The position numbers and the translations under genes were made by a program. Shown piece by piece: positions 7,769 through 31,009 of a stretch of 64,000 nucleotides of DNA. Below the pieces are notes generated by a model. The model did no database searches. It worked only from the letters and a program-made list of their open reading frames with translations, and had not been told where the DNA came from. Source of the DNA: an uncultured Phycicoccus sp. (lineage in GTDB: Bacteria > Actinomycetota > Actinomycetes > Actinomycetales > Dermatophilaceae); assembly GCF_947495705.1 (NCBI RefSeq), contig NZ_CANLZR010000004.1, positions 62,001 to 126,000 on the forward strand. The letters run 5' to 3'. How positions within the stretch are numbered: the first letter of the stretch is position 1; each line of letters opens with the position of its first letter.

Positions 7769-9607
7769 ATGACCACAGCTGACCCGTTCAAGGACCTGGC
7801 GGCCGACGAGGACGAGTTCGATGTCGTCCACGAGGCGGTCCTGACCGACGGCGAGCTCGCCCGGTACGGCGCCACGCGGCTGCCGGACGACGTGCGTCAC
7901 CGCGAGAAGGACCGCGAGGACAAGTGTGCCGACGAGCCGGCGGTCGAGCCCGTCGACCACAAGGACCCGGCGTCGAAGATCCACCCGCTCCTGCGGGAGC
8001 GGAAGGGCAAGCGCGCCAGTGACGCGATCGAGACGGTCGTCGTCACCTTCCGGGACGAGCTGGCGATGCCACGGTTCCCCGAGCCCGACGTGGACCAGCC
8101 CCGCGACTGCTGCGACAACGCCCGCGAGCTCGAGCGGGCGGATGCGCTCGCCGACACGGTGCGGCGGCGACGCGCGGACGACTACCAGCAGCTGACCGAA
8201 CGCCTCGGCCGCGTCGACGCGAAGGTGACCGACACCTTCTGGCTGATCCGCGGCGTGCAGGCCCGGATGCCGTTGGCCGGCATCGAGGAGCTGGCCGAGG
8301 ACGAGGAGGTCCTGTACATCGAGCCGGACGACACCGAGGACGCGCCCCCGCAGAACGACGTCGTGGACGGGAGGCGGGACATCGTCTCGGACCCCTACTT
8401 CGGCCTCGGCCTCACCAGCGGGTGGATCGGCCTGCTCGACACCGGTGTCCGGCGGACCCACGTGGTGTTCAACTCACCGTCGCACATCGACTTCATGCGC
8501 GACTGCGTCAACGGGGGTGCCGACTGCAACACCGGCACCGCGCTCAACCCCGCCGACGACTGCTGGGACCACGGCACGGCGAGCGCCGCCATCATCACCG
8601 CCAACAACCGGCAGGGCAACGCCTTCCGCGGGGTCACCGGGATCACCCTGGACAGCTGGAAGGTCTACCCGAGCTCGGTCGACGCCTCGGGCAACTGCAA
8701 CGGCTTCCTCAACGTCACGGCCGCCGTCCGCGGTTTCGAGAACGCGGTCCGCGTGCTCGACCGGGTGATCGTGGCGGAGATGCAGGGGTCGGGCGACGAC
8801 CGCAGCGCCATCGCGGTGGCCGCCGACAACGCCTTCGACGCCGGCGCCGTCGTCATCGCCGCGAACGGCAACAACGGGCCGGGCGCCTCCACCGTCAACG
8901 TCCCCGCCAACGCCCACAAGGCCCTCGGGGTCGGCAACTTCGACGTCCAGTCGGGCACCCAGGTGGCGAGCCAGAGCCGCGGCCCGGCACCCGACGGCCG
9001 CTTCAAGCCCGACATCCAGGCACCCACCAACACCGAGACGGCGAGCAACGCCTCCGACACCGCGCGCCGCGTGTTCGGCGGGACCAGCGGGGCGACCCCG
9101 TACGCCGCCGGCGCCGCCGCGCTGCTGCGCAACTGGCTGCGTCGCCCGACCGGCTCGATCGACCCGGGCCAGGTCTACGCCCAGATGATCCTGTCGGGGC
9201 AGAACCCCTACCCCTTCACCAACACCGAAGGGGCCGGCCCGATCGAGCTGCCGACGAACGGGGTGGCCTGGTGGGGCAAGGTCACGGTCCGCGACGGCGA
9301 GAACGTCGACATCCCCCTCCCCGTCAACGCCGAGCGCGCCAACACCCTCGACGCGGCACTGTGGTGGCCCGAGGGCGGCGTCCGCATCTTCGGCTTCCAG
9401 CTCGACTGGCACAGCGACATCGACCTCCACCTGATCGACCCCTCCGGGGCGACGCGGGCGTCGAGCATCTCGATCCCCAGCGTCTTCGAGCGGGCCCGGG
9501 TCGGCGGGCGCATCGCCACCGGCACCTGGAGGCTGCGGATCCGGGGCTATCGGGTCCCGTCGGTGGTGCCTACCGTGTACTGGGCGGCCCACGTCCGCAC
9601 CCGGTGA
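7769..9607 (+). CDS. S8 (subtilisin-like) serine peptidase, no visible signal peptide
   Basis: A 612-residue subtilase. The catalytic triad reads D224 (LLDTGVRRTH), H268 (DHGTAS) and S440 (GGTSGATPYAAG). Residues 1-200 are acidic and charged, with paired Cys, and contain an inhibitor-like region before the catalytic domain. The last 130 residues resemble a beta-rich pre-peptidase/P-like domain (WHSDIDLHLIDPSG). The N-terminus is hydrophilic, without Sec or TAT features, so the enzyme is either cytoplasmic or exported by another route. The ATG is preceded by a strong AAGGAGG. A 90-residue protein gene follows 19 nt downstream and may be co-expressed. Confidence 0.85.
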   Translation: MTTADPFKDLAADEDEFDVVHEAVLTDGELARYGATRLPDDVRHREKDREDKCADEPAVEPVDHKDPASKIHPLLRERKGKRASDAIETVVVTFRDELAMPRFPEPDVDQPRDCCDNARELERADALADTVRRRRADDYQQLTERLGRVDAKVTDTFWLIRGVQARMPLAGIEELAEDEEVLYIEPDDTEDAPPQNDVVDGRRDIVSDPYFGLGLTSGWIGLLDTGVRRTHVVFNSPSHIDFMRDCVNGGADCNTGTALNPADDCWDHGTASAAIITANNRQGNAFRGVTGITLDSWKVYPSSVDASGNCNGFLNVTAAVRGFENAVRVLDRVIVAEMQGSGDDRSAIAVAADNAFDAGAVVIAANGNNGPGASTVNVPANAHKALGVGNFDVQSGTQVASQSRGPAPDGRFKPDIQAPTNTETASNASDTARRVFGGTSGATPYAAGAAALLRNWLRRPTGSIDPGQVYAQMILSGQNPYPFTNTEGAGPIELPTNGVAWWGKVTVRDGENVDIPLPVNAERANTLDAALWWPEGGVRIFGFQLDWHSDIDLHLIDPSGATRASSISIPSVFERARVGGRIATGTWRLRIRGYRVPSVVPTVYWAAHVRTR

Positions 9608-15979: not shown

Positions 15980-16585
15980 TCACCCCGTGACGAGCACGAC
16001 GTGTAGGCGCCGTGGCCCGTGGACGCCCTCGACCCGGTCCAACTCGATGTCGCTCGTCGCGGACGGCCCGCTGATCCAGGTCTGCGGCCGGGTCGGGTTG
16101 AGCGCGGCCACGGCGTCGACGACACCGGCGACGACCTGGTCGGCGGCCACGACGCAGACGTGCAGGTCCGGGACGAGGGTGATGGCGCGCCGCCCCTGGC
16201 CCGGGCCGTGGTCCAGGACGACCGTCCCGGTCTCGGCGATGCCGAGGGTCGCGCGCGTCACGACCGCGTCGACGGCGTCGAGCTCGGCGGCGGACAGGCC
16301 GTGGTCGGGGACGCACCGGGGGACGTCGAGCCACAGCGCGTCCGGGACGACGACCCGGGTGGCGGCTCCGAGGGCTGCGGCAACGGCGGCCTCGACGTCG
16401 CCGGGAGAACACCGGGTGACGGTGGCGCGGTAGTCGGCGACCCGCTCGGCGAAGAGGTCGACGACGTCCGCGCCCGGCGGTAGCGGGTCGCGGTCGCGGT
16501 AGGTGCGGTCGACGGCGACCTCCAGCGGGCGGTCCGGCCCGAGGGCGGCCCGCACGGCGGCGAGCACGTCGTCGCGGGTGCTCAT
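15980..16585 (-). CDS. lutC: Lactate utilisation protein C
   Basis: A 201-residue LutC/YkgG family protein (LUD domain). Typical elements are RVVVPDALW, the GIAETGTVVLDHGPGQGRRAITLVPDLHVCVV segment and a TWISGPSATSDIEL ending. With LutA and LutB it forms the iron-sulfur L-lactate oxidising complex that feeds electrons to the quinone pool. The ATG at 16585 overlaps the lutB stop as ATGA and is preceded by GAGGAGGGA. Last gene of a minus-strand set. Confidence 0.9.
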   Translation of the reverse strand: MSTRDDVLAAVRAALGPDRPLEVAVDRTYRDRDPLPPGADVVDLFAERVADYRATVTRCSPGDVEAAVAAALGAATRVVVPDALWLDVPRCVPDHGLSAAELDAVDAVVTRATLGIAETGTVVLDHGPGQGRRAITLVPDLHVCVVAADQVVAGVVDAVAALNPTRPQTWISGPSATSDIELDRVEGVHGPRRLHVVLVTG

Positions 16586-18063
16586 CGCCGTCCCTCCTCG
16601 GTGCCGCCACCGCGGCGCCACCAGGCGCGGAAGGACTCGCGCGGCGGCAGCGGCAGGTCACGGGCCCCGGTCCAGCGGGAGCCGGCGAACGGCAGCCACG
16701 ACACCGCGCCGCGCCCGCCGGGCATGCCCCGGCCGCGGCGGACGCGGCCGGCGCCGCCCGCGGCCTTCTCGGCCAGGGCGAGCCGGCGTGCGTCGCCCAG
16801 CGTCCAGGCCGCGGCGCGGACCGCGAGCGCCTCGGCCGTGGGCCGGGTGTCGCTGCGGTGGGCGTCGACGACCGCCGTCCGCAGGTGGACGAGCACCCCC
16901 GGGATGTCGATCGCCACCGGGCAGACGTCGCCGCACGCGCCGCAGAGCGTCGAGGCGTAGGGCAGCGCGTCGACCTGGGGATCCTGCCCGACCCCGCGCA
17001 GCAGCGGGTTGATGATCGCGCCGATCGGGCCGGGGTACACCGAGCCGTACGCGTGGCCGCCGACGCGCTCGTAGACGGGGCACACGTTGAGGCAGGCCGA
17101 ACAGCGGATGCAGCGCAGCGCCTGCCGGGCGTACTCGTCGGCGAGGGCCCGGGTGCGGCCGTTGTCGAGGAGGACGACGTGCACCTCCTGGGGTCCGTCG
17201 CCGGGCGTCACGCCGGTCCACATCGAGGTGTACGGGTTCATCCGCTCGCCGGTCGAGGACCGGGGCAGGAGCCGCAGGAACAGGTCGAGGTCACGCCACG
17301 TCGGCACGACCTTCTCGATCCCGACGACGGACACGAGGACGTCCGGCAGGGTCAGGCACATCCGGCCGTTGCCCTCGGACTCGACGACGACGAGGGTCCC
17401 GGTCTCGGCGACGGCGAAGTTCGCCCCCGAGACCGCCATCCGGGCCGACAGGAACTTCTCGCGCAGGTGCAGCCGGGCGGCGGCGGCCAGGGCGGCCGGG
17501 TCGTCGGTGAGGTCGTCGGGGGCGGGGCGGCCCGCAGCGGCCATCCGGGTGCGGAAGATGTCGCGGATCTCGGCGCGGTTGCGGTGGATCGCCGGGACCA
17601 GGATGTGGCTCGGCAGGTCGTCCCCGAGCTGGACGATGAGCTCGGCGAGGTCGGTCTCCCAGGCCGCGATCCCCTGCTCGGCCAGCGCCTCGTTGAGCCC
17701 GATCTCCTGGGTCGCCATCGACTTGACCTTGACGACCTCGTCGATGCCGTGGCGGCGCGCCACGTCGGCGACGACGGCGCACGCGTCGGCCGCGTCACGC
17801 GCCCAGTGGACGGTGGCCCCGCGTGCGCTCAGCGCCTCCTCGAGGGCCACCAGGTGCTCGTCGAGGTGGGCGAGGGTCCGGTCCTTGACGGCGGCGGCCT
17901 GGGCGCCCAGGTCCTCCCAGTCCTCGAGCTCGGCGACGGCGCCGGCGCGCTTGCCCCGGATCGTCCCGGTCGCATGGGCGAGGTTGCGGCGCAGCTGGCT
18001 GTCGGCGAGCGCGGTCCGGGCTGCGACGGGGAACGGCGGCATGCCGACGAAGGTGCGCCCCAT
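16582..18063 (-). CDS. lutB: Lactate utilisation iron-sulfur protein B
   Basis: A 493-residue protein. The N-terminal half is a LUD domain (KVKSMATQEIGLNEAL and SGANFAVAETGTLVVVESEGN). The C-terminal half holds two [4Fe-4S] motifs, CIRCSACLNVCP and CGACGDVCP, typical of LutB/YkgF. It relays electrons in L-lactate oxidation. ATG at 18063 is preferred over a longer frame that reads into the palindromic repeats upstream. The 199-bp gap to lutA is filled by those repeats, which is unusual inside an otherwise tight lut gene set. Confidence 0.92.
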   Translation of the reverse strand: MGRTFVGMPPFPVAARTALADSQLRRNLAHATGTIRGKRAGAVAELEDWEDLGAQAAAVKDRTLAHLDEHLVALEEALSARGATVHWARDAADACAVVADVARRHGIDEVVKVKSMATQEIGLNEALAEQGIAAWETDLAELIVQLGDDLPSHILVPAIHRNRAEIRDIFRTRMAAAGRPAPDDLTDDPAALAAAARLHLREKFLSARMAVSGANFAVAETGTLVVVESEGNGRMCLTLPDVLVSVVGIEKVVPTWRDLDLFLRLLPRSSTGERMNPYTSMWTGVTPGDGPQEVHVVLLDNGRTRALADEYARQALRCIRCSACLNVCPVYERVGGHAYGSVYPGPIGAIINPLLRGVGQDPQVDALPYASTLCGACGDVCPVAIDIPGVLVHLRTAVVDAHRSDTRPTAEALAVRAAAWTLGDARRLALAEKAAGGAGRVRRGRGMPGGRGAVSWLPFAGSRWTGARDLPLPPRESFRAWWRRGGGTEEGRR

Positions 18064-18081
18064 CAGCACCCCACCCCCACA

Positions 18082-18256
18082 GCCCGTACCTGCCGCGACC
18101 AATAGGTCACAGGGGGTACAGCATGGGTCCGTACCTGGCACGACCAATAGGTCACAAGCGGTGCAGCCGCCTGTCCCTGGTGTGACCTATTGGTCGATAT
18201 CGGTCCGGGACGGGGCTGTACCTGGCGTGACCTATCGGTCGATCGCGGGACGGGGA
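18082..18256. repeat. Cluster of four palindromic repeats (locus A) between lutA and lutB
   Basis: Four copies share the 15-bp core CGACCAATAGGTCAC or its reverse complement: 18096-18110 and 18141-18155 forward, 18182-18196 and 18227-18241 reverse (the last with C for T). GACC/GGTC arms enclose a 4-nt AATA/TATT loop. Outer GTACC(TGG) and GGTAC-like arms extend some copies to hairpins of about 35-40 nt. Spacing is 45, 41 and 45 bp. The forward pair followed by a reverse pair resembles a bacterial interspersed mosaic element. The same family recurs at 26901-27040. Short frames read through it are artefacts of the repeat. Confidence 0.8.
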
Positions 18257-18262
18257 CGGGGG

Positions 18263-19021
18263 TCATCGGGTCGCCTCCTGCGTCCACGGGTCGTCGGCGG
18301 TCGAGGCGAGCACCTCGGCGAGGTGCATGGTCCGCACGCCCGTCCGCTGCCGCGACAGCAGCCCGCCGACGTGCATGAGGCACGACGCGTCACCGGCGAC
18401 GAGGACCTCGGCACCGGTCCCGACGACGTGGCGCGCCTTGTCCGAGCCCATCGCAACGGAGGTGTCGGCGTTCTTGACCGCGAACGTGCCGCCGAAGCCG
18501 CAGCACTCCTCGGCGCCGGGCAGGTCCACGAGGTCGATACCGCGCACGGCCTCCAGCAGGCGCAGCGGCCGGTCCCCCACCCGCAGCATCCGCAGCGAGT
18601 GGCACGTCGGGTGGTACGTGACCCGGTGCGGGAACGACGCCCCGACGTCGGTGACACCGAGCACGTCGACGAGGAACTCGGACAGCTCGTACGTACGCGG
18701 CCCGAGTCGCGCGACGCCGTCGACGAGCGCCGGGTCCCCCGCCCGCTCGGCGACGATGCCGTGCTGGTGGCGCACCGACCCCGCGCACGACCCCGACGGC
18801 ACGACGACGGCGTCGAACCCCTCGAAGGCGGACACCGTCGTCCGCACGAGCGGCACGGCCTCGTCGAGGTAGCCGGTGTTGACCATCGGCTGCCCGCAGC
18901 ACGTCTGCGCCTCGGGCACCTCGACGTCGACCCCGAGCCGGCGCAGCAGGCGCACCGTCGCGCGGGGTGCCTCGGGGAACATCGCGTCCCCCAGGCACGT
19001 CGCCATGAGCCCGACCCGCAC
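18263..19021 (-). CDS. lutA: Lactate utilisation protein A (Fe-S oxidoreductase)
   Basis: A 252-residue LutA/YkgE protein with two CCG domains, TCCGQPMVNTGY and ECCGFGGTFAVK, that bind a [4Fe-4S] cluster and help oxidise L-lactate. GTG at 19021 is chosen because it begins the conserved VGLMATCLGDAMFPEA and lies 2 nt after the methyltransferase stop; a longer frame would read antisense to nothing conserved. Followed by the palindrome cluster and then lutB, so the repeats may separate or stabilise parts of the transcript. Confidence 0.92.
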   Translation of the reverse strand: MRVGLMATCLGDAMFPEAPRATVRLLRRLGVDVEVPEAQTCCGQPMVNTGYLDEAVPLVRTTVSAFEGFDAVVVPSGSCAGSVRHQHGIVAERAGDPALVDGVARLGPRTYELSEFLVDVLGVTDVGASFPHRVTYHPTCHSLRMLRVGDRPLRLLEAVRGIDLVDLPGAEECCGFGGTFAVKNADTSVAMGSDKARHVVGTGAEVLVAGDASCLMHVGGLLSRQRTGVRTMHLAEVLASTADDPWTQEATR

Positions 19022-19023
19022 GC

Positions 19024-19683
19024 TCAGCCCTTCGCGGCGCGGCGCAGGAGGACGGCGGTGAACTGCTGGGTGCTCCCCCACGGCGTCACGTGGTCCTCCC
19101 CGGCGGTGTCGACCAGCTCGAAGCCGGGGAACTGCGCCGCGAGCTCGTGGTGGGTGTAGCGGACGATGGGCAGCCCCGAGCAGGTCGTGGGCCCGTCCGG
19201 CCCGAAGGTGGCCACGACGACCCAGCCGCCCGGGGCCAGACAGCGCTCGAGCGAGACGAGGTAGTCCTCCCGCTCGTCGGGCTCGGTGAGGAAGTGGAAG
19301 ACCGCCCGGTCGTGCCACAGGGAGTACTGCCGGCCCGGGTTCAGGTCCAGGACGTCCGCCACGTCGAGGACCACCTGGGCTCCGGCCGCGCCGAGCCGGT
19401 CGCGCACCGTCTGCAGTGCGGTCGCGGACAGGTCGATGGCGGTGAGGTCGGTGTACCCGCGCTCGAGGAGGTGGTCGACGAGGGTGGACCACCCCGCCCC
19501 GACGTCGATGACGGGCTCGTCACGGCCGATGCCGGTGGCGTCGACGAGCCCGAGCGACAGCTCGGGCACCGACTGCCACCACGAGACGCCGTCGACGTCC
19601 TTGGAGCCGTGGACCCCCTCCCAGAAGTCCTGACGGCTCCCGGTGTCCGCCGGCCGCCGGAGGTCGCTCACGTCGTCGCTCAT
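19024..19683 (-). CDS. Class I SAM-dependent methyltransferase upstream of lutA
   Basis: A 219-residue methyltransferase with SAM motif VIDVGAGWSTLVDHLLERGY, acidic DLTAIDLS, and LWHDRAVFHFLTEPDER. This is a small-molecule group with some likeness to TPMT/TehB-type enzymes, which can methylate thiols or chalcogen oxyanions in some cases. It starts at ATG 19683 with a TACCGT hexamer 6 nt before it. Its stop is 2 nt from lutA, so it may head a methyltransferase-lutA(-lutB-lutC) transcript. It is divergent, across 101 bp, from the TusA/radical SAM gene, which makes a link to that system possible. Substrate unknown. Confidence 0.7.
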   Translation of the reverse strand: MSDDVSDLRRPADTGSRQDFWEGVHGSKDVDGVSWWQSVPELSLGLVDATGIGRDEPVIDVGAGWSTLVDHLLERGYTDLTAIDLSATALQTVRDRLGAAGAQVVLDVADVLDLNPGRQYSLWHDRAVFHFLTEPDEREDYLVSLERCLAPGGWVVVATFGPDGPTTCSGLPIVRYTHHELAAQFPGFELVDTAGEDHVTPWGSTQQFTAVLLRRAAKG

Positions 19684-19689
19684 CCTCCG

Positions 19690-19695
19690 ACGGTA
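19690..19695 (-). promoter_or_regulatory. Putative -10 element for the methyltransferase-lut set
   Basis: TACCGT on the minus strand, 6 nt (CGGAGG) before the ATG at 19683. That spacer also resembles a ribosome-binding site, so leaderless and leadered starts are both possible. Confidence 0.35.
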
Positions 19696-19772
19696 GTCCG
19701 GACACCACGCCGCCGGGAGCCCCGTAAGGAGACCGTCACCGCCAGGCCCGTGCCATCCGAGCCCGGACGCCC

Positions 19773-19778
19773 TACGGT
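19773..19778 (+). promoter_or_regulatory. Putative -10 element for the TusA-radical SAM operon
   Basis: TACGGT followed by 6 nt and the ATG at 19785, consistent with a leaderless message for the whole 19785-25200 operon. No clear -35. Confidence 0.4.
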
Positions 19779-19784
19779 CGAAGC

Positions 19785-20876
19785 ATGGTCCCCACCGGAG
19801 CACAACCGGTCCCTACCCCCCTCGGTGACGTGGCCCGGCTCGTGGACGGGGGCGACATGGACTGCGGCAGTGGCCTGCTGCTCCTCATCACCCGCGCGAT
19901 GCGTCGGCTCGAGCACGGCGACCTCCTGGCGGTGCGCAGCGCCGAGCCGTCGGTGCGCACCGACCTCCCGGTGTGGGCCGAGCTCGTCGGGCACGACGTC
20001 ACCGCCGAGCACGCCGAGTCCGCCGACGGCCCCTGGTGGTTCGCGGTCCGCAAGGTCGTGGGCCTCGCCGCCGACACGATGTTCACCGTCGGCGACCGGA
20101 CGCCGGTGGGCCGCCGGCTGTGGGCCTACACGAACTTCGACTGCAACCTCGCGTGCGCGTACTGCTGCGCTCAGTCCTCCCCCAAGGCCCTGGCCCGTCG
20201 GCTCCCGGTCGACGTGGCACGCGCCGCGTTCGCGGAGTTCCGCGACCTCGGCGGCCGCGAGCTGTTCCTCACCGGCGGCGAGCCGTTCATGCACCCCGAC
20301 CTCGGCGAGCTGGTGGCCGCGGGCGCCGGGCTGGAGCGCACGATCCTCACGAACGCGATGATCTTCGCCCGCGGCACGCGCCGGCAGACGCTGGAGGGCC
20401 TGGACCGCGACGTCGCGCTCCAGGTGAGCCTGGACTCCGCGACCCCCGACCTGCACGACGCCCAGCGCGGCGCCGGCTCGTGGGCCAAGGCGCTGAGCGG
20501 CATCGGCGAGGCGCGGGGTCTGGGCTTCCGGGTCCGGGTCGCGGCGACGCTCTACGACGAGGATCCCGAGGGCGTGCGGGCCCTGCACCGGCGGCTCGAC
20601 GACGAGGGCATCGCGAAGGAGGACCGGGTCATCCGGCCCGTCGCGCAGGAAGGGTTCGCCGACACCGGGATCCACGTCTCGATCGACACCCTCGAGCCGG
20701 AGCCGACGATCACTGCCGACGGCGCCTGGTGGCACCCGGTGGCCGTCACGAACCCGAACATGCGCATCGCGGACTCCCCACTCCCCCTCGCCGAGGTCTT
20801 CGGCGTCGTCACCGACACCGTGGCGGTGCAGGATGCCGCCACCCGATCCGGACGGGAGGTGTTCCGCTGTGCCTGA
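19785..20876 (+). CDS. TusA-like domain fused to a radical SAM enzyme
   Basis: A 363-residue protein. Residues 15-75 resemble a TusA sulfur-carrier domain, but the usual CPxP motif is absent; instead a single Cys stands in MDCGSGLLLL (C27). Residues 110-300 are a radical SAM domain with the [4Fe-4S] motif C120-x3-C124-x2-C127 (and an adjacent C128), then LFLTGGEPFMHPDL as the SAM-binding GGE motif. No clear C-terminal auxiliary-cluster (SPASM) domain is visible. Its stop overlaps the GTG (20869) of a DoxX-like gene, heading a five-gene operon with a PhnDCE-like importer. The combination suggests radical-based handling of an imported sulfur- or selenium-containing compound; substrate unknown. 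Confidence 0.8.
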   Translation: MVPTGAQPVPTPLGDVARLVDGGDMDCGSGLLLLITRAMRRLEHGDLLAVRSAEPSVRTDLPVWAELVGHDVTAEHAESADGPWWFAVRKVVGLAADTMFTVGDRTPVGRRLWAYTNFDCNLACAYCCAQSSPKALARRLPVDVARAAFAEFRDLGGRELFLTGGEPFMHPDLGELVAAGAGLERTILTNAMIFARGTRRQTLEGLDRDVALQVSLDSATPDLHDAQRGAGSWAKALSGIGEARGLGFRVRVAATLYDEDPEGVRALHRRLDDEGIAKEDRVIRPVAQEGFADTGIHVSIDTLEPEPTITADGAWWHPVAVTNPNMRIADSPLPLAEVFGVVTDTVAVQDAATRSGREVFRCA

Positions 20877-21810
20877 ATCCGACACGCGTACACCAACCAC
20901 CATGACGGGCCGCGCGCGGTCCGCCGTCGACTGGCTGCTGGCCCCCGCCACCGAGGCGGTGCCCCGGCACCAGGCGGTCGGCGCGACCTTCCTGCGGATC
21001 CTCCTCGGCTTCCTGTGGCTGTGGAACGTCAACTGGAAGATCCCGCCGGACTTCGGCGAGGCAGGCGGGCGCGGCCTCTACAAGTTCACCGCGTTCGCGG
21101 TCAGCGACCCCGTGCTCCCGCCGTACTCCTACGTCGTGGAGCACGTCGTCCTGCCCAACCTGGCGGTCTTCGGGTGGGGCGTCATCGTCGCCGAGACCGC
21201 CCTCGCCGTGCTCCTGCTCTCCGGCGCCTGGATCCGCGCCGCCGCCGCGCTCGGCATCGCCCAGAGCCTGGCCATCGGCCTGTCGGTGGCGTTCGCCCCG
21301 AACGAGTGGCCGTGGGCGTACCTGCTCATGCTCGGCGCCCACGTCGCGCTCCTCGCGTCCTCGTCGGGGCGGTATCTCGCGGTCGACGCGATCCGGACCG
21401 GGCTCGACCACGGCCGGACCCTCGGGCGCGTGGCCGGAGGCGTCGCGCTCGCCGCCGGCCTGGTCGGCGTGCTCGGGTCGTTCGGCGACCCGCTCGCCGC
21501 GTCGGGCCCGCAGATCGGCACCTCGAGCCTCGAGGTGGGGCTCGGGTCGTTCAACCTCCTCGGCGGCGCGATCCTCCTCGTCGTCGGTGGCCTGCTGCTG
21601 GCCACCGAGCGGATGGGGGCACGGGCGGCTCAGGGCGCGCTGGTCGTTGCGCTGCTCGCCGCCCTCCTCATGCGGATCCAGGCCGGGTTCGCCGAGCGTC
21701 TGCTCGGCGGCGGCGGCACCTCGGCGACGCTGCTGATGACCCTCGCCGTCGTGGCCTTCGTCCGGCTGCGGGCCGTCCGCACCACCTCCCATCCCCAGGA
21801 GCAGCCGTGA
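20869..21810 (+). CDS. DoxX/TQO-like multi-pass membrane protein
   Basis: A 313-residue integral membrane protein with several hydrophobic segments. The first (FLRILLGFLWLWNVNWKIPPDF) resembles the DoxX/DoxD family that includes thiosulfate:quinone oxidoreductase subunits. GTG at 20869 is chosen because GGGAGG stands about 9 nt upstream and it overlaps the radical SAM stop; ATG at 20902 is an alternative. Its own stop overlaps the GTG (21807) of the binding-protein gene. In context it may pass electrons to the quinone pool during oxidation of the imported compound, but this is inferred from family and neighbours only. Confidence 0.75.
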   Translation: MPESDTRTPTTMTGRARSAVDWLLAPATEAVPRHQAVGATFLRILLGFLWLWNVNWKIPPDFGEAGGRGLYKFTAFAVSDPVLPPYSYVVEHVVLPNLAVFGWGVIVAETALAVLLLSGAWIRAAAALGIAQSLAIGLSVAFAPNEWPWAYLLMLGAHVALLASSSGRYLAVDAIRTGLDHGRTLGRVAGGVALAAGLVGVLGSFGDPLAASGPQIGTSSLEVGLGSFNLLGGAILLVVGGLLLATERMGARAAQGALVVALLAALLMRIQAGFAERLLGGGGTSATLLMTLAVVAFVRLRAVRTTSHPQEQP

Positions 21811-22739
21811 CCCCCTCCCTGCCCCGCCGCCACGTCCTCATCGGGTCGGTTGGCGTCCTCGCCCTCGCGGCCTGCGGCGCGGACGAGACCGCGAGCCCGG
21901 CCGCAGAGGCAGGCGACGGGACCGGCGGCACCCTCGTCATCTCGGCCATCCCGGACCAGGACCCGGAGAAGCTCGGTCGGCTGTACCCGGCGCTCGCGGC
22001 GCTGCTCGCCGACGCCACGGGTCTCGAGGTCACCTACCAGCCGGTCACCGACTACCCGGCCGTGGTCCGGGGGTTCGAGGTCGGCGACATCGGGCTGTCC
22101 TGGATGGGCGGGCTCACCGGGGTGCAGGCCCGCTCCCGCGTCCCGGGGGCCCGGGCCATCGCCCAGCGCGACATCGACGCCGACTTCCACAGCGTCTTCA
22201 TCGCCAACACCGCGGCCGGGATCGCGCCGTTCACCGACGCGGCCGGGTTGACGGCCCTGGCCGGTCACTCCTTCACCTTCGGCAGCGAGACCTCGACGTC
22301 GGGCCGGCTCATGCCCCAGTACTTCATGGAGCAGGGCGGCCTTGCCGTCGCCGACCTCAAGGGCGAACCCGGGTTCTCGGGCTCGCACGACGCGACGGTC
22401 GAAGCCGTCGCCTCCGGCAGCTTCGAGGTCGGTGCGGTCAACGAGCAGGTGTGGAAGGCCGCGCAGGAGGCCGGCGAGGTCGACCTGTCCGAGGTCGTCG
22501 AGCTGTGGCGGACCCCCGGCTACGCGGACTACCACTGGCTCGCCCGACCCGACCTCGACGAGCGGCTCGGCGAGGGGACGACGCAGAGGATCACCGACGC
22601 CCTCCTCGCCCTCGACGCGGCGGACCCCCGCGACGCCGAGGTGCTGGACCTCTTCGGCGCCACGACGTTCGTCCCGACGGAGAACGCCAACTACGACCAG
22701 ATCGAGTCGGTGGCCGAGGAGCTGGGACTCCTCGCATGA
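21807..22739 (+). CDS. PhnD-like substrate-binding lipoprotein of an oxyanion ABC importer
   Basis: A 310-residue lipoprotein: the basic start PRRHVLIG is followed by a hydrophobic segment and the lipobox LAAC. The mature part has the type 2 periplasmic-binding fold of the PhnD/phosphite-phosphonate group: ISAIPDQDPEKLGRLYPALAALLADATG, VGDIGLSWMGGLTGVQAR and a GSHDATVEAVASGSFEVGAVNEQVW segment. Known members bind phosphate, phosphonate, phosphite or, by prediction, selenate. The neighbours (TusA-like, radical SAM, DoxX) point away from simple phosphonate use, since no C-P lyase genes are present here. Confidence 0.85.
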   Translation: MTPSLPRRHVLIGSVGVLALAACGADETASPAAEAGDGTGGTLVISAIPDQDPEKLGRLYPALAALLADATGLEVTYQPVTDYPAVVRGFEVGDIGLSWMGGLTGVQARSRVPGARAIAQRDIDADFHSVFIANTAAGIAPFTDAAGLTALAGHSFTFGSETSTSGRLMPQYFMEQGGLAVADLKGEPGFSGSHDATVEAVASGSFEVGAVNEQVWKAAQEAGEVDLSEVVELWRTPGYADYHWLARPDLDERLGEGTTQRITDALLALDAADPRDAEVLDLFGATTFVPTENANYDQIESVAEELGLLA

Positions 22740-23482
22740 CGGCGGCCGGCCCTGCCGTGCGGCTCACCGGGGCGACCCGGCGCTTCGGTGACCGCACCGC
22801 CGTCGACGCGGTCGACCTGACGATCCACCAGGGTGAGCGGGTCGCCCTTCTCGGGCCCAGCGGCGCGGGTAAGAGCACCTTGCTGGCGCTGCTCAACGCG
22901 TCGCTGCGACCGACGAGCGGGACGGTCGAGGTGCTCGGCGCGGACCTCGCCACCCTCACCGGGCCCGCCCTGCGCGTCGTGCAGCGCCGGGTCGGCACGA
23001 TCGGCCAGCGCCTCGACCTCGTCGACCAGGTGCGGGTGCTGCACAACGTCAACGCCGGGCGGCTCGGCCGGTGGAGCACCGGCAGGTCGCTCCTGGCGCT
23101 GGCGCTGCCGCGTCCCGACCCCGTCGTCGTGTCCGCGCTCGAGGCCGTGGGTCTCGGCTGGGCGGTCCACGAGCGCACCGAACGGCTGTCCGGGGGCGAG
23201 CGGCAGCGCGTCGCCATCGCCCGGCTCCTGGTGCAGGACCCCGAGCTCGTCCTCGCGGACGAGCCGGTGTCGAGCCTGGACCCGAGCCGGGCCTCGGAGG
23301 TGCTGGGGCTGCTGCGCGCCGCGACGCCGGACGGCACCCTTGTCGTGAGCCTGCACCAGCCCGAGCTGGCCCGACGCCACTGCACCCGCGCGATCGGCCT
23401 CCAGCAGGGGCGCGTCGTCCTCGACCGCCCCGCCGACGAGCTCGACGACGCCCTCCTCGCAGAGCTGTACGCCCTGACGTGA
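22736..23482 (+). CDS. PhnC-like ABC transporter ATPase
   Basis: A 248-residue ABC ATPase with Walker A GPSGAGKST (near residue 39), Q-loop, signature LSGGERQRVAIARLL, Walker B LVLADEP and switch His in VSLHQPELA. Closest by layout to PhnC of phosphonate/phosphite importers. The ATG overlaps the binding-protein stop and its TGA overlaps the GTG of the permease gene, so all three importer parts are coupled. Confidence 0.88.
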   Translation: MTAAGPAVRLTGATRRFGDRTAVDAVDLTIHQGERVALLGPSGAGKSTLLALLNASLRPTSGTVEVLGADLATLTGPALRVVQRRVGTIGQRLDLVDQVRVLHNVNAGRLGRWSTGRSLLALALPRPDPVVVSALEAVGLGWAVHERTERLSGGERQRVAIARLLVQDPELVLADEPVSSLDPSRASEVLGLLRAATPDGTLVVSLHQPELARRHCTRAIGLQQGRVVLDRPADELDDALLAELYALT

Positions 23483-25200
23483 GCCTCGACACCCGGCCGG
23501 CCGACCGGCCCGCATCCACGCGGGCGGCCACCGAGCGGCCCCGGGTCACCGCCCGCCGGGTCGCGCTCAGACGGCTCGTCGGGACCGGCCTCGTCGCCCT
23601 CGTCGTCGGGTGGTCCCTCGTCCGGTCGCTGTCCACCGACGGCGCCCTCGTCAACACCGGCGGGCTCCGCCTGCTGGGGCGGCTCCTCGCCGCCGTCGGG
23701 GATCCGGCGACCTCGCCCGACTTCCTCCGGATCGTCCTCGACGCCGCGCTGACCACCGTCGTCTACGCCGCGCTCGGCACGGCCGGGGCCCTGGTCATCG
23801 GGGTCGCCGGTGCCCTCGTCCTCAGCGACGCCACCTGGCGCCACCCGCCCGGTCGGGTCGTCGGTGCGATCCGCCTGGTCCTGCGAGGGATGCTGGTCGG
23901 CGTCCGCGCCATCCACGAGCTGATCTGGGCGCTGCTGTTCGTCAGCGTGCTCGGACTCGACCCCCTCGTCGCCGTCCTGGCCATCGCCGTCCCGTTCGGC
24001 GCACAGACGGCCAAGGTCTTCGCCGAGATCCTCGACGCCGCTCCCCGACACCCGGTCTCGGCGATGCGCGCGAGCGGTGCCCGGTCGGCAGCCGCTCTGG
24101 CCTACGGGCTCGTGCCGGCGGCGATCCCGCTGCTGCTGTCGTACGCGTTCTACCGGTTCGAGTGCGCGATCCGCTCGGCCGTGGTGCTCGGGGTCGTCGG
24201 GGTCGGCGGACTCGGCCAGGAGATGGTGCTCAGCCTCCAGTCGCGGAACTGGGACGAGGTCTGGACCCTGGTCGCGGCCGTCGTCGTCCTCTCGGGGGTC
24301 GTCGACGTGTGGAGCTCGAAGGTGCGCGGCGACCTGGCCGTCGTGTCGTGCTCGGACTGGTCCGGCGGGAGCACCGGGACCCCGCGCGGCAACCGGTCCT
24401 CGTGGGCGCGGTGGTCCGCCGTCTTCGCCGCCGTCGGCCTCGTCGCGGCGTGGTTCGCCTCGGGCGTCTCGTGGGCGGGCCTGGTGTCCGCACGCACGCG
24501 TGAGCTCACGGTCCGGCTCGTCGACGACCTGCTGCCGCCGGCGCTGCCTCCGGGCGGCTGGTCGGTGCTGGGCGGAGCGACGCTCGACACCCTGGCGATG
24601 GCCGTCCTCGCGATGGTCGTCGCGGTCGGCGTCACCCTCGTCGTCGGGCCGCTGGCGACCCGGGTGCGGCCCGTCGGGACCGACGAGGGTGCGGCCCGGC
24701 TCACCCGGGCGCCGCGGCTCGTCGGCCGGGTCGGCGCCCGGGGGGTGCTGCTCGTGCTCCGGTCCGTGCCGCCGACGGTCTGGGCGGCGCTGGCGCTGCT
24801 CGTCCTGTTCCCCGGGGTGCTGCCCGGGGCCGTCGCGCTCGGCCTCTACACAGGCGGCATCCTCGGGCGGCTCGTCGCCGAGGCCTGGGAGAGCATGGAC
24901 ACCCGGCCGCGGGACGCGCTGCGGGCGGCCGGCGTCCGGTCGGGCCTCGCCGCCCTGGTGGCCGTCCTGCCTCCCTCCTCCCACCAGCTCGTCACGTACA
25001 CCCTGTACCGGTTCGAGATCTGCGTGCGCGACACCGCGATCGTCGGGGTCGTCGGGGCGGCCGGCCTGGGGCGGCTGTTCGCCGAGAACCTGTCCGTCTT
25101 CCGGTTCTCCGCGGTGACGACGCTGCTGCTCGCCTCGTTCGCCGTGAGCGCGGCCAGCGAGGTGCTCGGCCGCCGGATCCGCCGCGCCATCTCCGCCTGA
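23479..25200 (+). CDS. Fused double permease (PhnE-PhnE-like) of the ABC importer
   Basis: A 573-residue membrane protein made of two homologous permease halves. The first (about 30-280) ends with YAFYRFECAIRSAVVLGVVGVGGLGQEM and the second (about 300-573) with TLYRFEICVRDTAIVGVVGAAGLGRLF, the repeated motif being the EAA-type loop that contacts the ATPase. Most PhnE permeases are single and dimerise; here the dimer is one chain. It is the last gene of the operon. The two halves have diverged, which suggests an old fusion. Confidence 0.85.
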   Translation: MSLDTRPADRPASTRAATERPRVTARRVALRRLVGTGLVALVVGWSLVRSLSTDGALVNTGGLRLLGRLLAAVGDPATSPDFLRIVLDAALTTVVYAALGTAGALVIGVAGALVLSDATWRHPPGRVVGAIRLVLRGMLVGVRAIHELIWALLFVSVLGLDPLVAVLAIAVPFGAQTAKVFAEILDAAPRHPVSAMRASGARSAAALAYGLVPAAIPLLLSYAFYRFECAIRSAVVLGVVGVGGLGQEMVLSLQSRNWDEVWTLVAAVVVLSGVVDVWSSKVRGDLAVVSCSDWSGGSTGTPRGNRSSWARWSAVFAAVGLVAAWFASGVSWAGLVSARTRELTVRLVDDLLPPALPPGGWSVLGGATLDTLAMAVLAMVVAVGVTLVVGPLATRVRPVGTDEGAARLTRAPRLVGRVGARGVLLVLRSVPPTVWAALALLVLFPGVLPGAVALGLYTGGILGRLVAEAWESMDTRPRDALRAAGVRSGLAALVAVLPPSSHQLVTYTLYRFEICVRDTAIVGVVGAAGLGRLFAENLSVFRFSAVTTLLLASFAVSAASEVLGRRIRRAISA

Positions 25201-26803: not shown

Positions 26804-26900
26804 GGCACCTCCTCCTTGTCGGGGGTGGTCCGGCCACCCTGCCCGTGACGGCGCTCCGACAGGGGCCTCCGGACGGACGAACCCGGGCATGCCCCCACCC

Positions 26901-27042
26901 GTACCTGCACCGACCAACAGGTCACGCCAGGTACGCACCCCGACCCCGGCTCCCGTACCTACCTCGACCAATAGGTCACACCAGGTACGCCCCGACCCCG
27001 GCTCCCGTACCTCCCTCGACCTATTGGTCACGCCAGGTACGC
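26901..27042. repeat. Tandem array of three palindromic repeats (locus B)
   Basis: Cores lie at 26911-26925 (CGACCAACAGGTCAC), 26965-26979 (CGACCAATAGGTCAC) and 27016-27030 (CGACCTATTGGTCAC), spaced 54 and 51 bp. Each is enclosed by outer arms GTACCT and AGGTAC, giving nested stem-loops of about 38 nt. The flanks of copies 2 and 3 are nearly identical over about 50 bp, but the 4-nt loop is exactly reverse-complemented (AATA to TATT). The family is shared with locus A at 18082-18256. Confidence 0.85.
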
Positions 27043-28773: not shown

Positions 28774-29634
28774 TCACGGCGCGTCGACCCAGCGGAAGGT
28801 GACGTCGCGACCCGGTGGCACCTGCGCCGCGCGGTCGACGTCCGCGTCGACGACGACCGCCACGACCGGGTAGCCGCCGGTCACGGGGTGGTCGGCGAGG
28901 AACACCACCGGCTCGCCGCTCGGCGGCACCTGCACCGCGCCCCGCCACACGCCCTCGCTCGGCAGCTCCGCGTCCCCGGCGGGGTCGACCGCCCCACCCG
29001 CCAGCCGCATCCCCACCCGGTTGCTCCGCTCCGTCACCCGCCAGGTCGTGCGGACGAGGAGGTCGGGGTCCCGCACCCGGTCGGCCCGAGGGCCCCGGAC
29101 CGCGCGCAGGACGACATCCCCGCCGTGGTCCGGCCACGGCACGTACGGCAGCGTCGGGACCTCACCCCCGGGCGCCCCGACCGCGAGGACGTCGCCTCGT
29201 TCGAGAGGCGCGGGCCCCAGCTTGGCCAGGACGTCGCGGCTCCGGGAGCCGAGCACCGGCGCCACGTCGATGCCACCGCGGACGGCGAGGTACGAGCGCA
29301 GCCCGTCCCGGGGGGGCCCGAGCCGGATCCGCGCACCGGGGGTCGCCCGGGCGAGGGCGTGCGACCCCACGGGACGGCCGTCCACCGTGACCTCGCAGAC
29401 CGCCCCCGTGACACAGAAGTCGACGGCGTCCTCGCCGACCTCGACCTCGAGACCGCCGGCGGTCACCTCGACCCCAGCCGCGCCCTCGGGGTTGCCGACG
29501 ACCCGGTTGCCGAGGCGCAGGGATCCCCGGTCGGCGGCCCCCGAGCGCCCCACGCCCACCCCCGCGAGCCCCGCTCGCCCGAGGTCCTCGACGAGGGCCA
29601 GCGGGCCGGTCGACCGCACCGTGAGGGCCCTCAC
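28774..29634 (-). CDS. pxpC: 5-oxoprolinase subunit C (biotin-dependent carboxyltransferase family)
   Basis: A 286-residue PxpC/KipA family protein, marked by VEDLGRAGLAGVGVGRSGAADRGSLRLGN near the N-terminus, IRLGPPRDGLRSYLAVRGGID, and a C-terminal SNRVGMRLAGGAV and EPVVFLADHPVTGGYPVVAVV. With PxpA and PxpB it cleaves 5-oxoproline to glutamate using ATP. GTG at 29634 overlaps the pxpB stop; it is the last gene of the pxpABC set. Confidence 0.9.
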   Translation of the reverse strand: MRALTVRSTGPLALVEDLGRAGLAGVGVGRSGAADRGSLRLGNRVVGNPEGAAGVEVTAGGLEVEVGEDAVDFCVTGAVCEVTVDGRPVGSHALARATPGARIRLGPPRDGLRSYLAVRGGIDVAPVLGSRSRDVLAKLGPAPLERGDVLAVGAPGGEVPTLPYVPWPDHGGDVVLRAVRGPRADRVRDPDLLVRTTWRVTERSNRVGMRLAGGAVDPAGDAELPSEGVWRGAVQVPPSGEPVVFLADHPVTGGYPVVAVVVDADVDRAAQVPPGRDVTFRWVDAP

Positions 29635-30245
29635 GGGCCCACCTCGACGAACCGGACCCGGACACCGGGGCGCATCAGCGCCGGCGGCTCCCGGTCGAGG
29701 TCGAACAGACGGAGCTCGGTGCGTCCGATGAGCTGCCAGCCTCCGGGCGACTCGCGCGGGTAGACCCCGGAGTACTCGCCCGCCAGGCCCACCGCGCCGG
29801 CCGGGACCCGGGTACGGGCCTCCACGCGCCGCGGGACGTGCAGGCGGTCGTGATCGCCCACGAGGTAGCCGAACCCCGGCGCGAAGCCACCGAAGGCCAC
29901 CTGCCACAGCTGCCCGGTGTGCGCCGCGACGACCTCCTCGCGCGTCAGGCCGGTGAGCCGGGCGACGTCGTCGAGGTCCTCCCCGTCGTAGACGACCGGG
30001 ACCTCCACGACGTCGCCCCCGTCACCGGTGCTCTCCGTCACCGGGTCCACCCGGTCCAGCGCGGCGCGGACCTCCGCCACGGGGACCCCGTCGGCCGCGA
30101 CGACCAGCACCGTGCGGGCGGCCGGCACCACCTCGCCGACGGCCGCGGGGCGCGCCGCGCGCAGCCCGGCCGCGAAGGCCATCGCCTCCGGCCCGTCCGC
30201 CAGCTCGACGAGCACGGCCCGGTCGCCGTACGGCAGGACCTTCAC
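29631..30245 (-). CDS. pxpB: 5-oxoprolinase subunit B
   Basis: A 204-residue PxpB/KipI family protein. Signatures are the N-terminal [13 protein letters not shown], the [27 protein letters not shown] stretch, and [16 protein letters not shown] at 30245 is chosen because it overlaps the pxpA stop (GTGA) and begins the conserved domain. It forms a complex with PxpC. Confidence 0.92.
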
Positions 30246-31009
30246 CCGAAGGCCCTCACCGTCACCCCGGCCTCCGCGAGCGTCGCCCGCACCCGCCGGG
30301 CCATCTCGACCGCACCCGGGGTGTCGCCGTGCAGGCACACCGACTCGGCGTCGACGGCCACCACGCTCCCGTCCACGGCGCTCACCTGGCCCTGGGTGAC
30401 GAGCCGGACGACCCGGCGCGCCACCTCGGCGGGGTCCTCGAGCACCGCTGCGGGCTCGCCACGCGGGACGAGCGTGCCGTCCGGGGTGTACCCGCGGTCG
30501 GCGAACGCCTCGCGGACGGCGCGCAGCCCGGCCGCCTCGGCCCGGCGGAGCAGCGCCGAGCCCGGCAGGCCGAGCACCGGGAGCGACGGGTCGTAGGCCC
30601 GGACCGCCTCGACGACGGCCCGGGCATGCCCCTCGTGGTGCACCGCGGCGTTGTACAGCGCCCCGTGCGGCTTGACGTAGGAGACCCGGGTCCCGGCGAC
30701 GCGGGCCATCGCCTCGAGCGCCCCCACCTGGTAGACGATGTCGTCGGCGAGTTCCCCCGGCTCGACGTCGAGGAAGCGGCGGCCGAAGCCGGCGAGGTCC
30801 CGGTAGCCGACCTGGGCCCCGACCGCGACCCCGCGCGCGGCGGCCGACTCGCAGCAGCGCCGCAGGGTGCTCGGGTCGCCGGCGTGGAACCCGCAGGCCA
30901 CGTTGGCGCTCGTCACGAGCGCCAGCACGGCGTCGTCGTCGCCGAGCCGCCAGCGGCCGAAGGACTCCCCGACATCGCTGTTGAGGTCGATGACCGCGCT
31001 GTCCGCCAT
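30242..31009 (-). CDS. pxpA: 5-oxoprolinase subunit A (LamB/YcsF family)
   Basis: A 255-residue YcsF/LamB family protein. The typical [12 protein letters not shown] start is followed by [27 protein letters not shown] and [12 protein letters not shown], which carry the conserved His and Asp residues. First gene of pxpABC, a route for recycling 5-oxoproline that forms spontaneously from glutamine. The gamma-glutamyltransferase gene at 61986-63512 is another source of gamma-glutamyl products in this genome, though far away. Confidence 0.94.

Follow-up and report, generated by a model that had tools for sequence, protein, structure and literature searches.

A radical SAM operon with a TIGR04553-type importer in an uncultured Phycicoccus: a candidate selenium route without SelD

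Why should an importer for an oxyanion share an operon with a radical S-adenosylmethionine (SAM) enzyme? The question is raised by five genes at positions 19785-25200 of a 64,000-nucleotide stretch of DNA (the window, about 74% G+C) from the 3.54 Mb genome of an uncultured Phycicoccus sp. An earlier reading made from the letters alone (the sequence-only reading) described them as a TusA-like domain fused to a radical SAM enzyme, a DoxX-like membrane protein, a PhnD-like lipoprotein, a PhnC-like ATPase and a double PhnE-like permease, and proposed that they import a sulfur or selenium compound and process it by redox or radical chemistry. All five frames were found at their place, and neighbouring frames overlap at every junction (in gene order GTGCCTGA, GTGA, ATGA and GTGA). 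One gene had been overlooked, a divergent methyltransferase gene 98 bases upstream, which we count as the sixth of the set; judging from the arrangement, the stretch between it and the operon is probably a control region serving both directions (Table 1). Our tentative answer is that selenium enters through this importer as an oxyanion, most likely (hydrogen)selenite, and passes to a route of TusA, radical SAM and methyltransferase proteins that would not depend on SelD.

Is this importer one for selenium? The lipoprotein passes the cut-off of TIGR04553, the NCBIfam family named putative selenate (Table 1), while the PhnD model gives 115 bits against a cut-off of 261, so the selenate-type membership suggested earlier holds at family level. 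The distribution of the family was surveyed in the order (248 genomes, 8 with TIGR04553 and 80 with selD) and in the phylum (396 genomes, 10 with TIGR04553), selD being called at E 1e-30. Within the order, selD is present in 7/7 TIGR04553 genomes besides that of the window and in 73 of the remaining 241 (Fisher, p = 3e-4); within the phylum, it is present in 9/9 others and in 40 of 64 controls picked by genome serial number (p = 0.02). Two things weaken the case made by these tests: they ignore kinship, the seven order genomes representing three genera, and the phylum is in any case rich in selD, as the controls show. Among the genomes with radical SAM relatives, where the search for selD and TIGR04553 covers 50 of 61 chosen loci, five of 50 hold TIGR04553 above cut-off; selD was found in G253, G277 and G285 and not in G248 and G250, both metagenome bins of unstated completeness. 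Outside this kind of operon, selD occurs in all 19 TIGR04553 genomes examined. The importer also stands beside selenium genes: selB, selD and tRNA-Sec in G043 and G059, the end of selB in G129, selD and SenB (378 bits) in G680, selD, SenB (334 bits) and SenA (475 bits) in G277, and SenA (470 bits) in G579. At least six of the 19 genomes therefore have it next to selenocysteine or selenoneine genes, a lower bound since the importer neighbours were annotated in part only. Regulators near the importer in G433 and G579 reach 205 and 203 bits with a selenium LysR model whose cut-off is 250. We regard a link of the TIGR04553 importer family to selenium as probable and as the firmest element of our reading.

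Does the window genome then use selenium in a familiar way? SelD is said to define overall selenium utilisation (PMC1273633), and selD was not found at E 1e-30 in the window genome, which is listed as 100% complete, nor in the other three genomes that carry the importer in this operon. The counts are thus 0/4 with the importer in the operon and 19/19 with it elsewhere, and without selD the four genomes have no known selenium trait to use the import. Co-occurrence with selD, to which the sequence-only reading had looked, appears for the family elsewhere and fails for the window genome and the three others. The same reading saw neither C-P lyase nor selD in the window, and this extends to the whole genome, where PhnJ gave no match at E 0.001. 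Plain phosphonate uptake was rejected on the lack of PhnJ and the low PhnD score.

The pocket of the binding protein tells more. Among solved structures it comes closest to MITS9220 PhnD1 (7S6G, E 5e-91) and then to Prochlorococcus PhnD (5LQ5, E 1e-67), both of which also pass the TIGR04553 cut-off (337 and 301 bits). Eleven pocket residues (D11, Y44, T65, F88, S124, T125, S126, H156, N174, D203 and Y204 in 7S6G numbering) are identical in 7S6G, in the window protein, in its counterparts at L009 and L011, and in all but one of the 20 importers of selD genomes that pass the cut-off; the exception, L127, has Ser for N174 and Asn for D203. There is Ser at T65 in 5LQ5, a twelfth column (S123) varies between T, S and N, and divergence is greater in the L132 and L068 proteins, which are more distant. 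The sole cysteine of the window protein is that of the lipobox, leaving none in the mature part.

Could the ligand simply be a phosphorus compound? The operon would then take up phosphite, phosphate or phosphonate, and the radical SAM protein would act on phosphorus or be unrelated. The nearest solved relatives, with the same pocket, bind phosphite or, for 7S6G, phosphate; Pm_PhnD has a Kd of 0.051 uM (51 nM) for phosphite and 182 uM for phosphate; a tyrosine serves as a cap facing the R1 hydrogen, and the presence of an Asp points to a ligand that is mono-anionic and protonated (PMC5700983). The concern that the window protein might cluster with phosphite binders is half justified, as it does group with 7S6G and 5LQ5. 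Every one of the 97 sequenced picocyanobacteria in Cyanorak has PhnD1, which showed no induction in phosphorus-starvation studies, and the picocyanobacteria tested that have PhnD1 but not the ptxD set did not grow on phosphite (PMC10284923). Picocyanobacteria carry a selD-like gene and ybbB (PMC1273633). With PhnJ missing from the window genome, the failure of growth on phosphite, and a family that tracks selD and adjoins selenium genes, we consider a phosphorus role very improbable.

An alternative explanation of the phosphite affinity may lie in the shape of the ligand. Hydrogenselenite has the same three oxygens as phosphite, with a lone pair where phosphite has its P-H bond. By this resemblance we favour selenite over selenate as the imported oxyanion, and we tentatively read the phosphite binding by PhnD1-type relatives as shape mimicry of selenite, not as proof of a phosphite role.

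What speaks against selenium, apart from the missing selD? The following points all do. The measured TIGR04553 members bind phosphite, and the authors of PMC10284923 take PhnD1 to be probably a constitutive medium-affinity phosphate importer whose phosphite affinity is fortuitous, a proposal that also belongs on the side of phosphorus. The stem "selen" is absent from the main text of PMC10284923, as are "selenate" and "selenite" from the main text of PMC5700983. The operon binding proteins, including that of L142, have WMGG at a place where other importers have WFGG, WYGG, WVGG or similar. The Mycobacterium- and Bradyrhizobium-type relatives read have lost the TusA cysteine described below, and many relatives, including 3/11 clade-A loci other than the importer-bearing ones, have glycosyltransferases close by whose family names refer to arsenosugars. 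In the tree, the four operon binding proteins form one clade (100/100) among importers from selD genomes, with inner branches not firmly supported; the L142 protein was placed by 72% identity and the tree. As they form a clade of their own with WMGG, their ligand may have shifted.

A shift towards sulfur is the first alternative to be considered: the importer would bring in sulfite or thiosulfate, from which the TusA, radical SAM and methyltransferase proteins would make an organosulfur compound. The TusA domain, the DsrE and free TusA genes of relatives, the DoxX-like protein, the lack of selD and the separate WMGG clade are all consistent with it. In all other respects, however, the pocket matches that of the importers found in selD genomes, the family tracks selenium genes, and sulfate is usually plentiful; on balance sulfur is rather unlikely. 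A specific role of the DoxX-like protein in thiosulfate oxidation, to which the sequence-only reading alluded, is not supported, as the protein stays below the gathering score of PF07681 (DoxX, TQO small subunit) and its DoxX scores are weak (Table 1). For the gene itself the best start is the GTG at 20869, with GGGAGG upstream, and the listed ATG at 20833 is less likely. The general proposal of import followed by redox or radical processing of a sulfur or selenium compound is partly supported: it gains from the selenium link of the importer family and loses with respect to selD and the thiosulfate role.

What could the radical SAM protein contribute? Its C120, C124 and C127 (CxxxCxxC), for the cluster, are invariant in 19 aligned proteins including that of the window, its C-terminus carries F-x-C-A, and the part after the TusA domain resembles BlsE, MoaA, SkfB and viperin. 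The N-terminal part scores 22.3 bits with Pfam TusA (PF01206), below the gathering score of 28.6. Nevertheless, a profile built from 13 such domains matches the TusA structures 3lvj and 1dcj (E 2e-5), and a predicted structure of the domain (pLDDT 90.8) best matches E. coli TusA (3lvj, 3lvk, 1dcj; E 1e-5), which confirms the TusA fold of this part and the fusion reported earlier. Cys27 occupies the position of the active cysteine of TusA and CPxP is replaced by DCGSGLL; the cysteine is kept in 11 of 13 aligned TusA-like domains, CPxP in none. The sequence-only reading was right about C27, the lack of CPxP and the three cluster cysteines.

Do these genes stay together in other genomes? At least 215 radical SAM relatives were found and 80 kept; neighbourhoods were taken from 64 of these (L009-L072), three whole-genome loci and the window. 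Gene calls in the relatives are mechanical open reading frames, and neighbour counts rest on tblastn matches above thresholds of our own choosing; L071 holds no radical SAM gene, and L006 and L037 are one locus, of which L037 was left out of the counts. Clade A, to which the window protein belongs, comprises ten tree rows (SH-aLRT 100) and five loci added by similarity, 15 in all. Importer, radical SAM and methyltransferase genes occur together in all four importer-bearing clade-A loci found (the window, L009, L011 and L142), and all six genes stand in the same order in the window and in L009, a Nocardioides bin. The operons of L011 (a Lapillicoccus bin) and L142 (G767) lack DoxX, so the expectation that the genes stay together is borne out by the importer genes, the radical SAM gene and the methyltransferase gene, but by DoxX only in part. 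The operon proteins of these three loci are 59-83% identical to those of the window (DoxX 50% in L009). The methyltransferase partner is 74-83% identical in L008, L009, L011 and L142, and 49-52% in L012, L013, L015 and L061.

The other clade-A loci show two further arrangements. One joins an ArsP-like permease, a separate Cys-bearing TusA-like frame, the radical SAM gene and the methyltransferase (L012, L013, L015, L061); the other has DoxX, TusA, DsrE and radical SAM genes (L010, L144, L145, L146), with free TusA relatives that score 27.9 (L010), 30.1 (L144) and 22.1 (L146) with PF01206. Counting both fused and separate forms, TusA with its cysteine is present in 14/15 clade-A loci, L014 being the exception, and a further TusA with DsrE in 5/15. 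This favours sulfur or selenium over phosphorus or arsenic. A rule that this radical SAM clade excludes selD was tried and rejected: among ten clade-A genomes without the importer in the operon, selD was found in G253, G699 and G734 and not found in seven (G163, G863 and the genomes of L010, L012, L013, L015 and L061).

Perhaps, then, importer and radical SAM genes do unrelated jobs and only share an operon. The importer is absent from 11/15 clade-A loci, and of the 20 above-cut-off importers that lie outside this operon, just one has a radical SAM match in the stretch fetched. Against this stand the four loci with conserved order, the coupled starts and stops in the window, and a second joining of importer, radical SAM and DoxX genes. 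The latter is found in G253, a selD genome that holds a TIGR04553 importer elsewhere (L130): divergently beside it stand DoxX and AhpD-like genes together with a radical SAM gene of a more distant kind, whose product resembles those of L066, L068 and L070 (grouped by likeness, off the tree). The lack of any functional link is hence quite improbable.

Arsenic is a further candidate, since an arsenosugar-like route could let the radical SAM enzyme and the methyltransferase build an organoarsenical from imported arsenite. In the arsenosugar pathway an oxyanion is made organic, and ArsS joins arsenic to the deoxyadenosyl group; radical SAM and methyltransferase proteins are common to that pathway and the window. 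The ArsP_1-family permease in the first arrangement above (Pfam score for L012) suggests arsenic and is one more point against selenium. TIGR04282-type glycosyltransferases lie near 13/14 Bradyrhizobium/Acidobacteria-type loci, 3/22 Mycobacterium-type loci and 3/11 other clade-A loci, and TIGR04283-type ones near 12/17 of another clade, types in the relatives being assigned by similarity to HMM-scored proteins. Nucleoside phosphorylases lie near 4/14 Bradyrhizobium/Acidobacteria-type loci; together, the two kinds of enzyme would fit 5'-deoxyadenosyl adducts that are turned into sugars. Yet neither kind is near the importer-bearing loci (0/4). ArsS is a distant relative of the window protein, at 42 bits with TIGR04167 against a cut-off of 300, and it has neither this TusA domain nor an importer with a cysteine-free pocket; AioX binds arsenite via Cys106 (PMC5908839), while the mature binding protein here has no cysteine. 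As TusA and DsrE fit chalcogens better, arsenic appears improbable.

Returning to selenium, how might the route run? All steps after import we infer from the genes present. A tyrosine-capped PhnD-type protein with its PhnC/PhnE-type ABC importer would bring in (hydrogen)selenite, which cytosolic thiols would reduce, and Cys27 in the TusA domain might then hold the selenium in perselenide form. A 5'-deoxyadenosyl radical from the C120/C124/C127 cluster could then form a C-Se bond, on a substrate or, as in ArsS, on the deoxyadenosyl group itself. The divergent methyltransferase may methylate the product and the DoxX-like protein may exchange electrons with the membrane, so that the route would end in a small organoselenium molecule whose synthesis needs no SelD.

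If this holds, the operon points to a selenium route without SelD, possibly a new selenium pathway. According to a 2022 review, no high-affinity selenium transport system has been identified (PMC9312934). Judged by their gene neighbours, TIGR04553 importers are a strong candidate for that part, and their "putative" name becomes a ligand to be tested. The selenite reading also offers a simple answer to a puzzle, namely that PhnD1 prefers phosphite over phosphate though the strains tested cannot use phosphite. The fullest version joins selenite import, carriage on the TusA cysteine, C-Se bond formation by radical SAM chemistry and methylation into one SelD-independent pathway, with TIGR04553 as the missing high-affinity bacterial selenium importer and PhnD1 proteins as selenite importers; taken whole, it is doubtful. 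No mention of TIGR04553 was found in the literature searched, and for selenite uptake or bacterial selenium ABC transporters with phnD, the matches listed were plant papers only.

How does the operon compare with known systems? TIGR04553 systems elsewhere are alike in an above-cut-off binding protein, the pocket and PhnC/PhnE-like partners; they differ in having selD in 19 genomes and adjoining selenium genes in six, whereas the window lacks selD and has its importer joined to radical SAM-TusA and methyltransferase genes. Picocyanobacterial PhnD1 (7S6G, 5LQ5, 5LQ8) is of the same family, with the same pocket in 7S6G and one residue off in 5LQ5; it has tesA as conserved neighbour (PMC10284923). 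The selenoneine pathway (SenA, SenB and selenophosphate synthase) has SenA or SenB adjoining a TIGR04553 importer in G680, G277 and G579. That pathway needs selenophosphate, and the window genome has no selD.

The nearest named families are those of Rv1678-Rv1681 (DoxX-like, FadE16, SBP-like and radical SAM, by the Mycobacterium gene names in NCBIfam models), which share radical SAM, DoxX-like and PhnD-fold proteins with the window. The window radical SAM protein stays below the cut-off of the Rv1681 model NF049973 (Table 1) and falls in a clade separate from that family (SH-aLRT 100). Mycobacterium-type loci have the importer in 0/22, FadE16 in 21/22 and an Rv1680-like gene in 22/22, and the Rv1681-type proteins read lack the TusA cysteine. 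Assignment of the operon to an Rv1681 system was rejected, as cut-offs and partner genes do not agree. Six aligned Rv1680-like proteins (L006, L007, L044, L017, L019, L014) keep the PhnD fold and have Asp, Glu, His and Cys in place of the oxyanion pocket; these residues point to a different ligand, perhaps a metal or thiol compound. With so different a pocket, the Rv1678-Rv1681 system cannot serve to infer the ligand of the window operon. No paper naming two of Rv1678, Rv1680 and Rv1681 was found in the literature searched, and for Rv1681 the matches listed were tuberculosis diagnosis, biomarker or vaccine papers only.

Table 1. Position, strand and supporting scores of the operon, its divergent neighbour and the stretch between them
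Feature	Position in window	Strand	Basis
Class I SAM-dependent methyltransferase, divergent from operon	19024..19686	-	Methyltransf_25 46.4 bits
Divergent intergenic region, 98 bases	19687..19784		sequence
TusA-like domain fused to radical SAM enzyme	19785..20876	+	NF049973 343 bits (cut-off 380); Radical_SAM 61.6 bits; AlphaFold model pLDDT 87
TusA-like domain, residues 9-92 of radical SAM protein	19809..20060	+	profile matches and structure model
DoxX-like membrane protein, Rv1678-type	20869..21810	+	NF049986 38.7 bits (cut-off 50); DoxX 16.0 bits (cut-off 23.6)
TIGR04553-type oxyanion-binding lipoprotein	21807..22739	+	TIGR04553 325 bits (cut-off 250); 7S6G E 5e-91
PhnC-like importer ATPase	22736..23482	+	TIGR02315 209 bits (cut-off 266)
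Double PhnE-like permease, two fused domains	23479..25200	+	TIGR01097 293 bits in two stretches

Several observations on the relatives may be added. G767 has a second radical SAM copy (L143), 77% identical to that of the window and without importer or methyltransferase, beside which separate TusA and DsrE genes stand divergently. In L011, from a metagenome bin, a frame change interrupts the radical SAM gene (8001-9073), through either sequencing error or decay. At L068/L133 (G294, a selD genome), methyltransferase, PhnDCE-like importer, AhpD-like protein and radical SAM genes lie together, the binding protein being distant (TIGR04553 140 bits, below cut-off). The Bradyrhizobium/Acidobacteria-type clusters (L016-L024, L045-L048, L069) combine the radical SAM gene with Rv1680-like (13/14), FadE16 (12/14) and TIGR04282-type (13/14) genes; some add a GT2, a mannosyltransferase-like membrane protein and a nucleoside phosphorylase, and some a second radical SAM protein near a tungsten-cofactor maturase model (scored for L017). 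In a related radical SAM clade of 17 rows (L049, L051, L052, L055, L057, L059, L060, L062 and kin), TIGR04283-type glycosyltransferases stand beside 12/17, TIGR04282-type ones beside 8/17, and an MTAP-like phosphorylase beside some. The N-terminal part of many of its members is presumably a metallophosphoesterase. A second radical SAM protein at L049:3320-4837 matches no NCBIfam model at 1e-5.

Elsewhere in the window, near-palindromic repeats of 39-52 bases are interspersed at 18084-18254 and 26884-27041, around GACCAATAGGTCA; this core has 9 matches at up to 2 mismatches, against 0.21 expected. On the minus strand, the frames at 15980-19492 are taken by us as a lactate-utilisation LutABC set, and those at 28774-31009 presumably form a 5-oxoprolinase PxpABC set.

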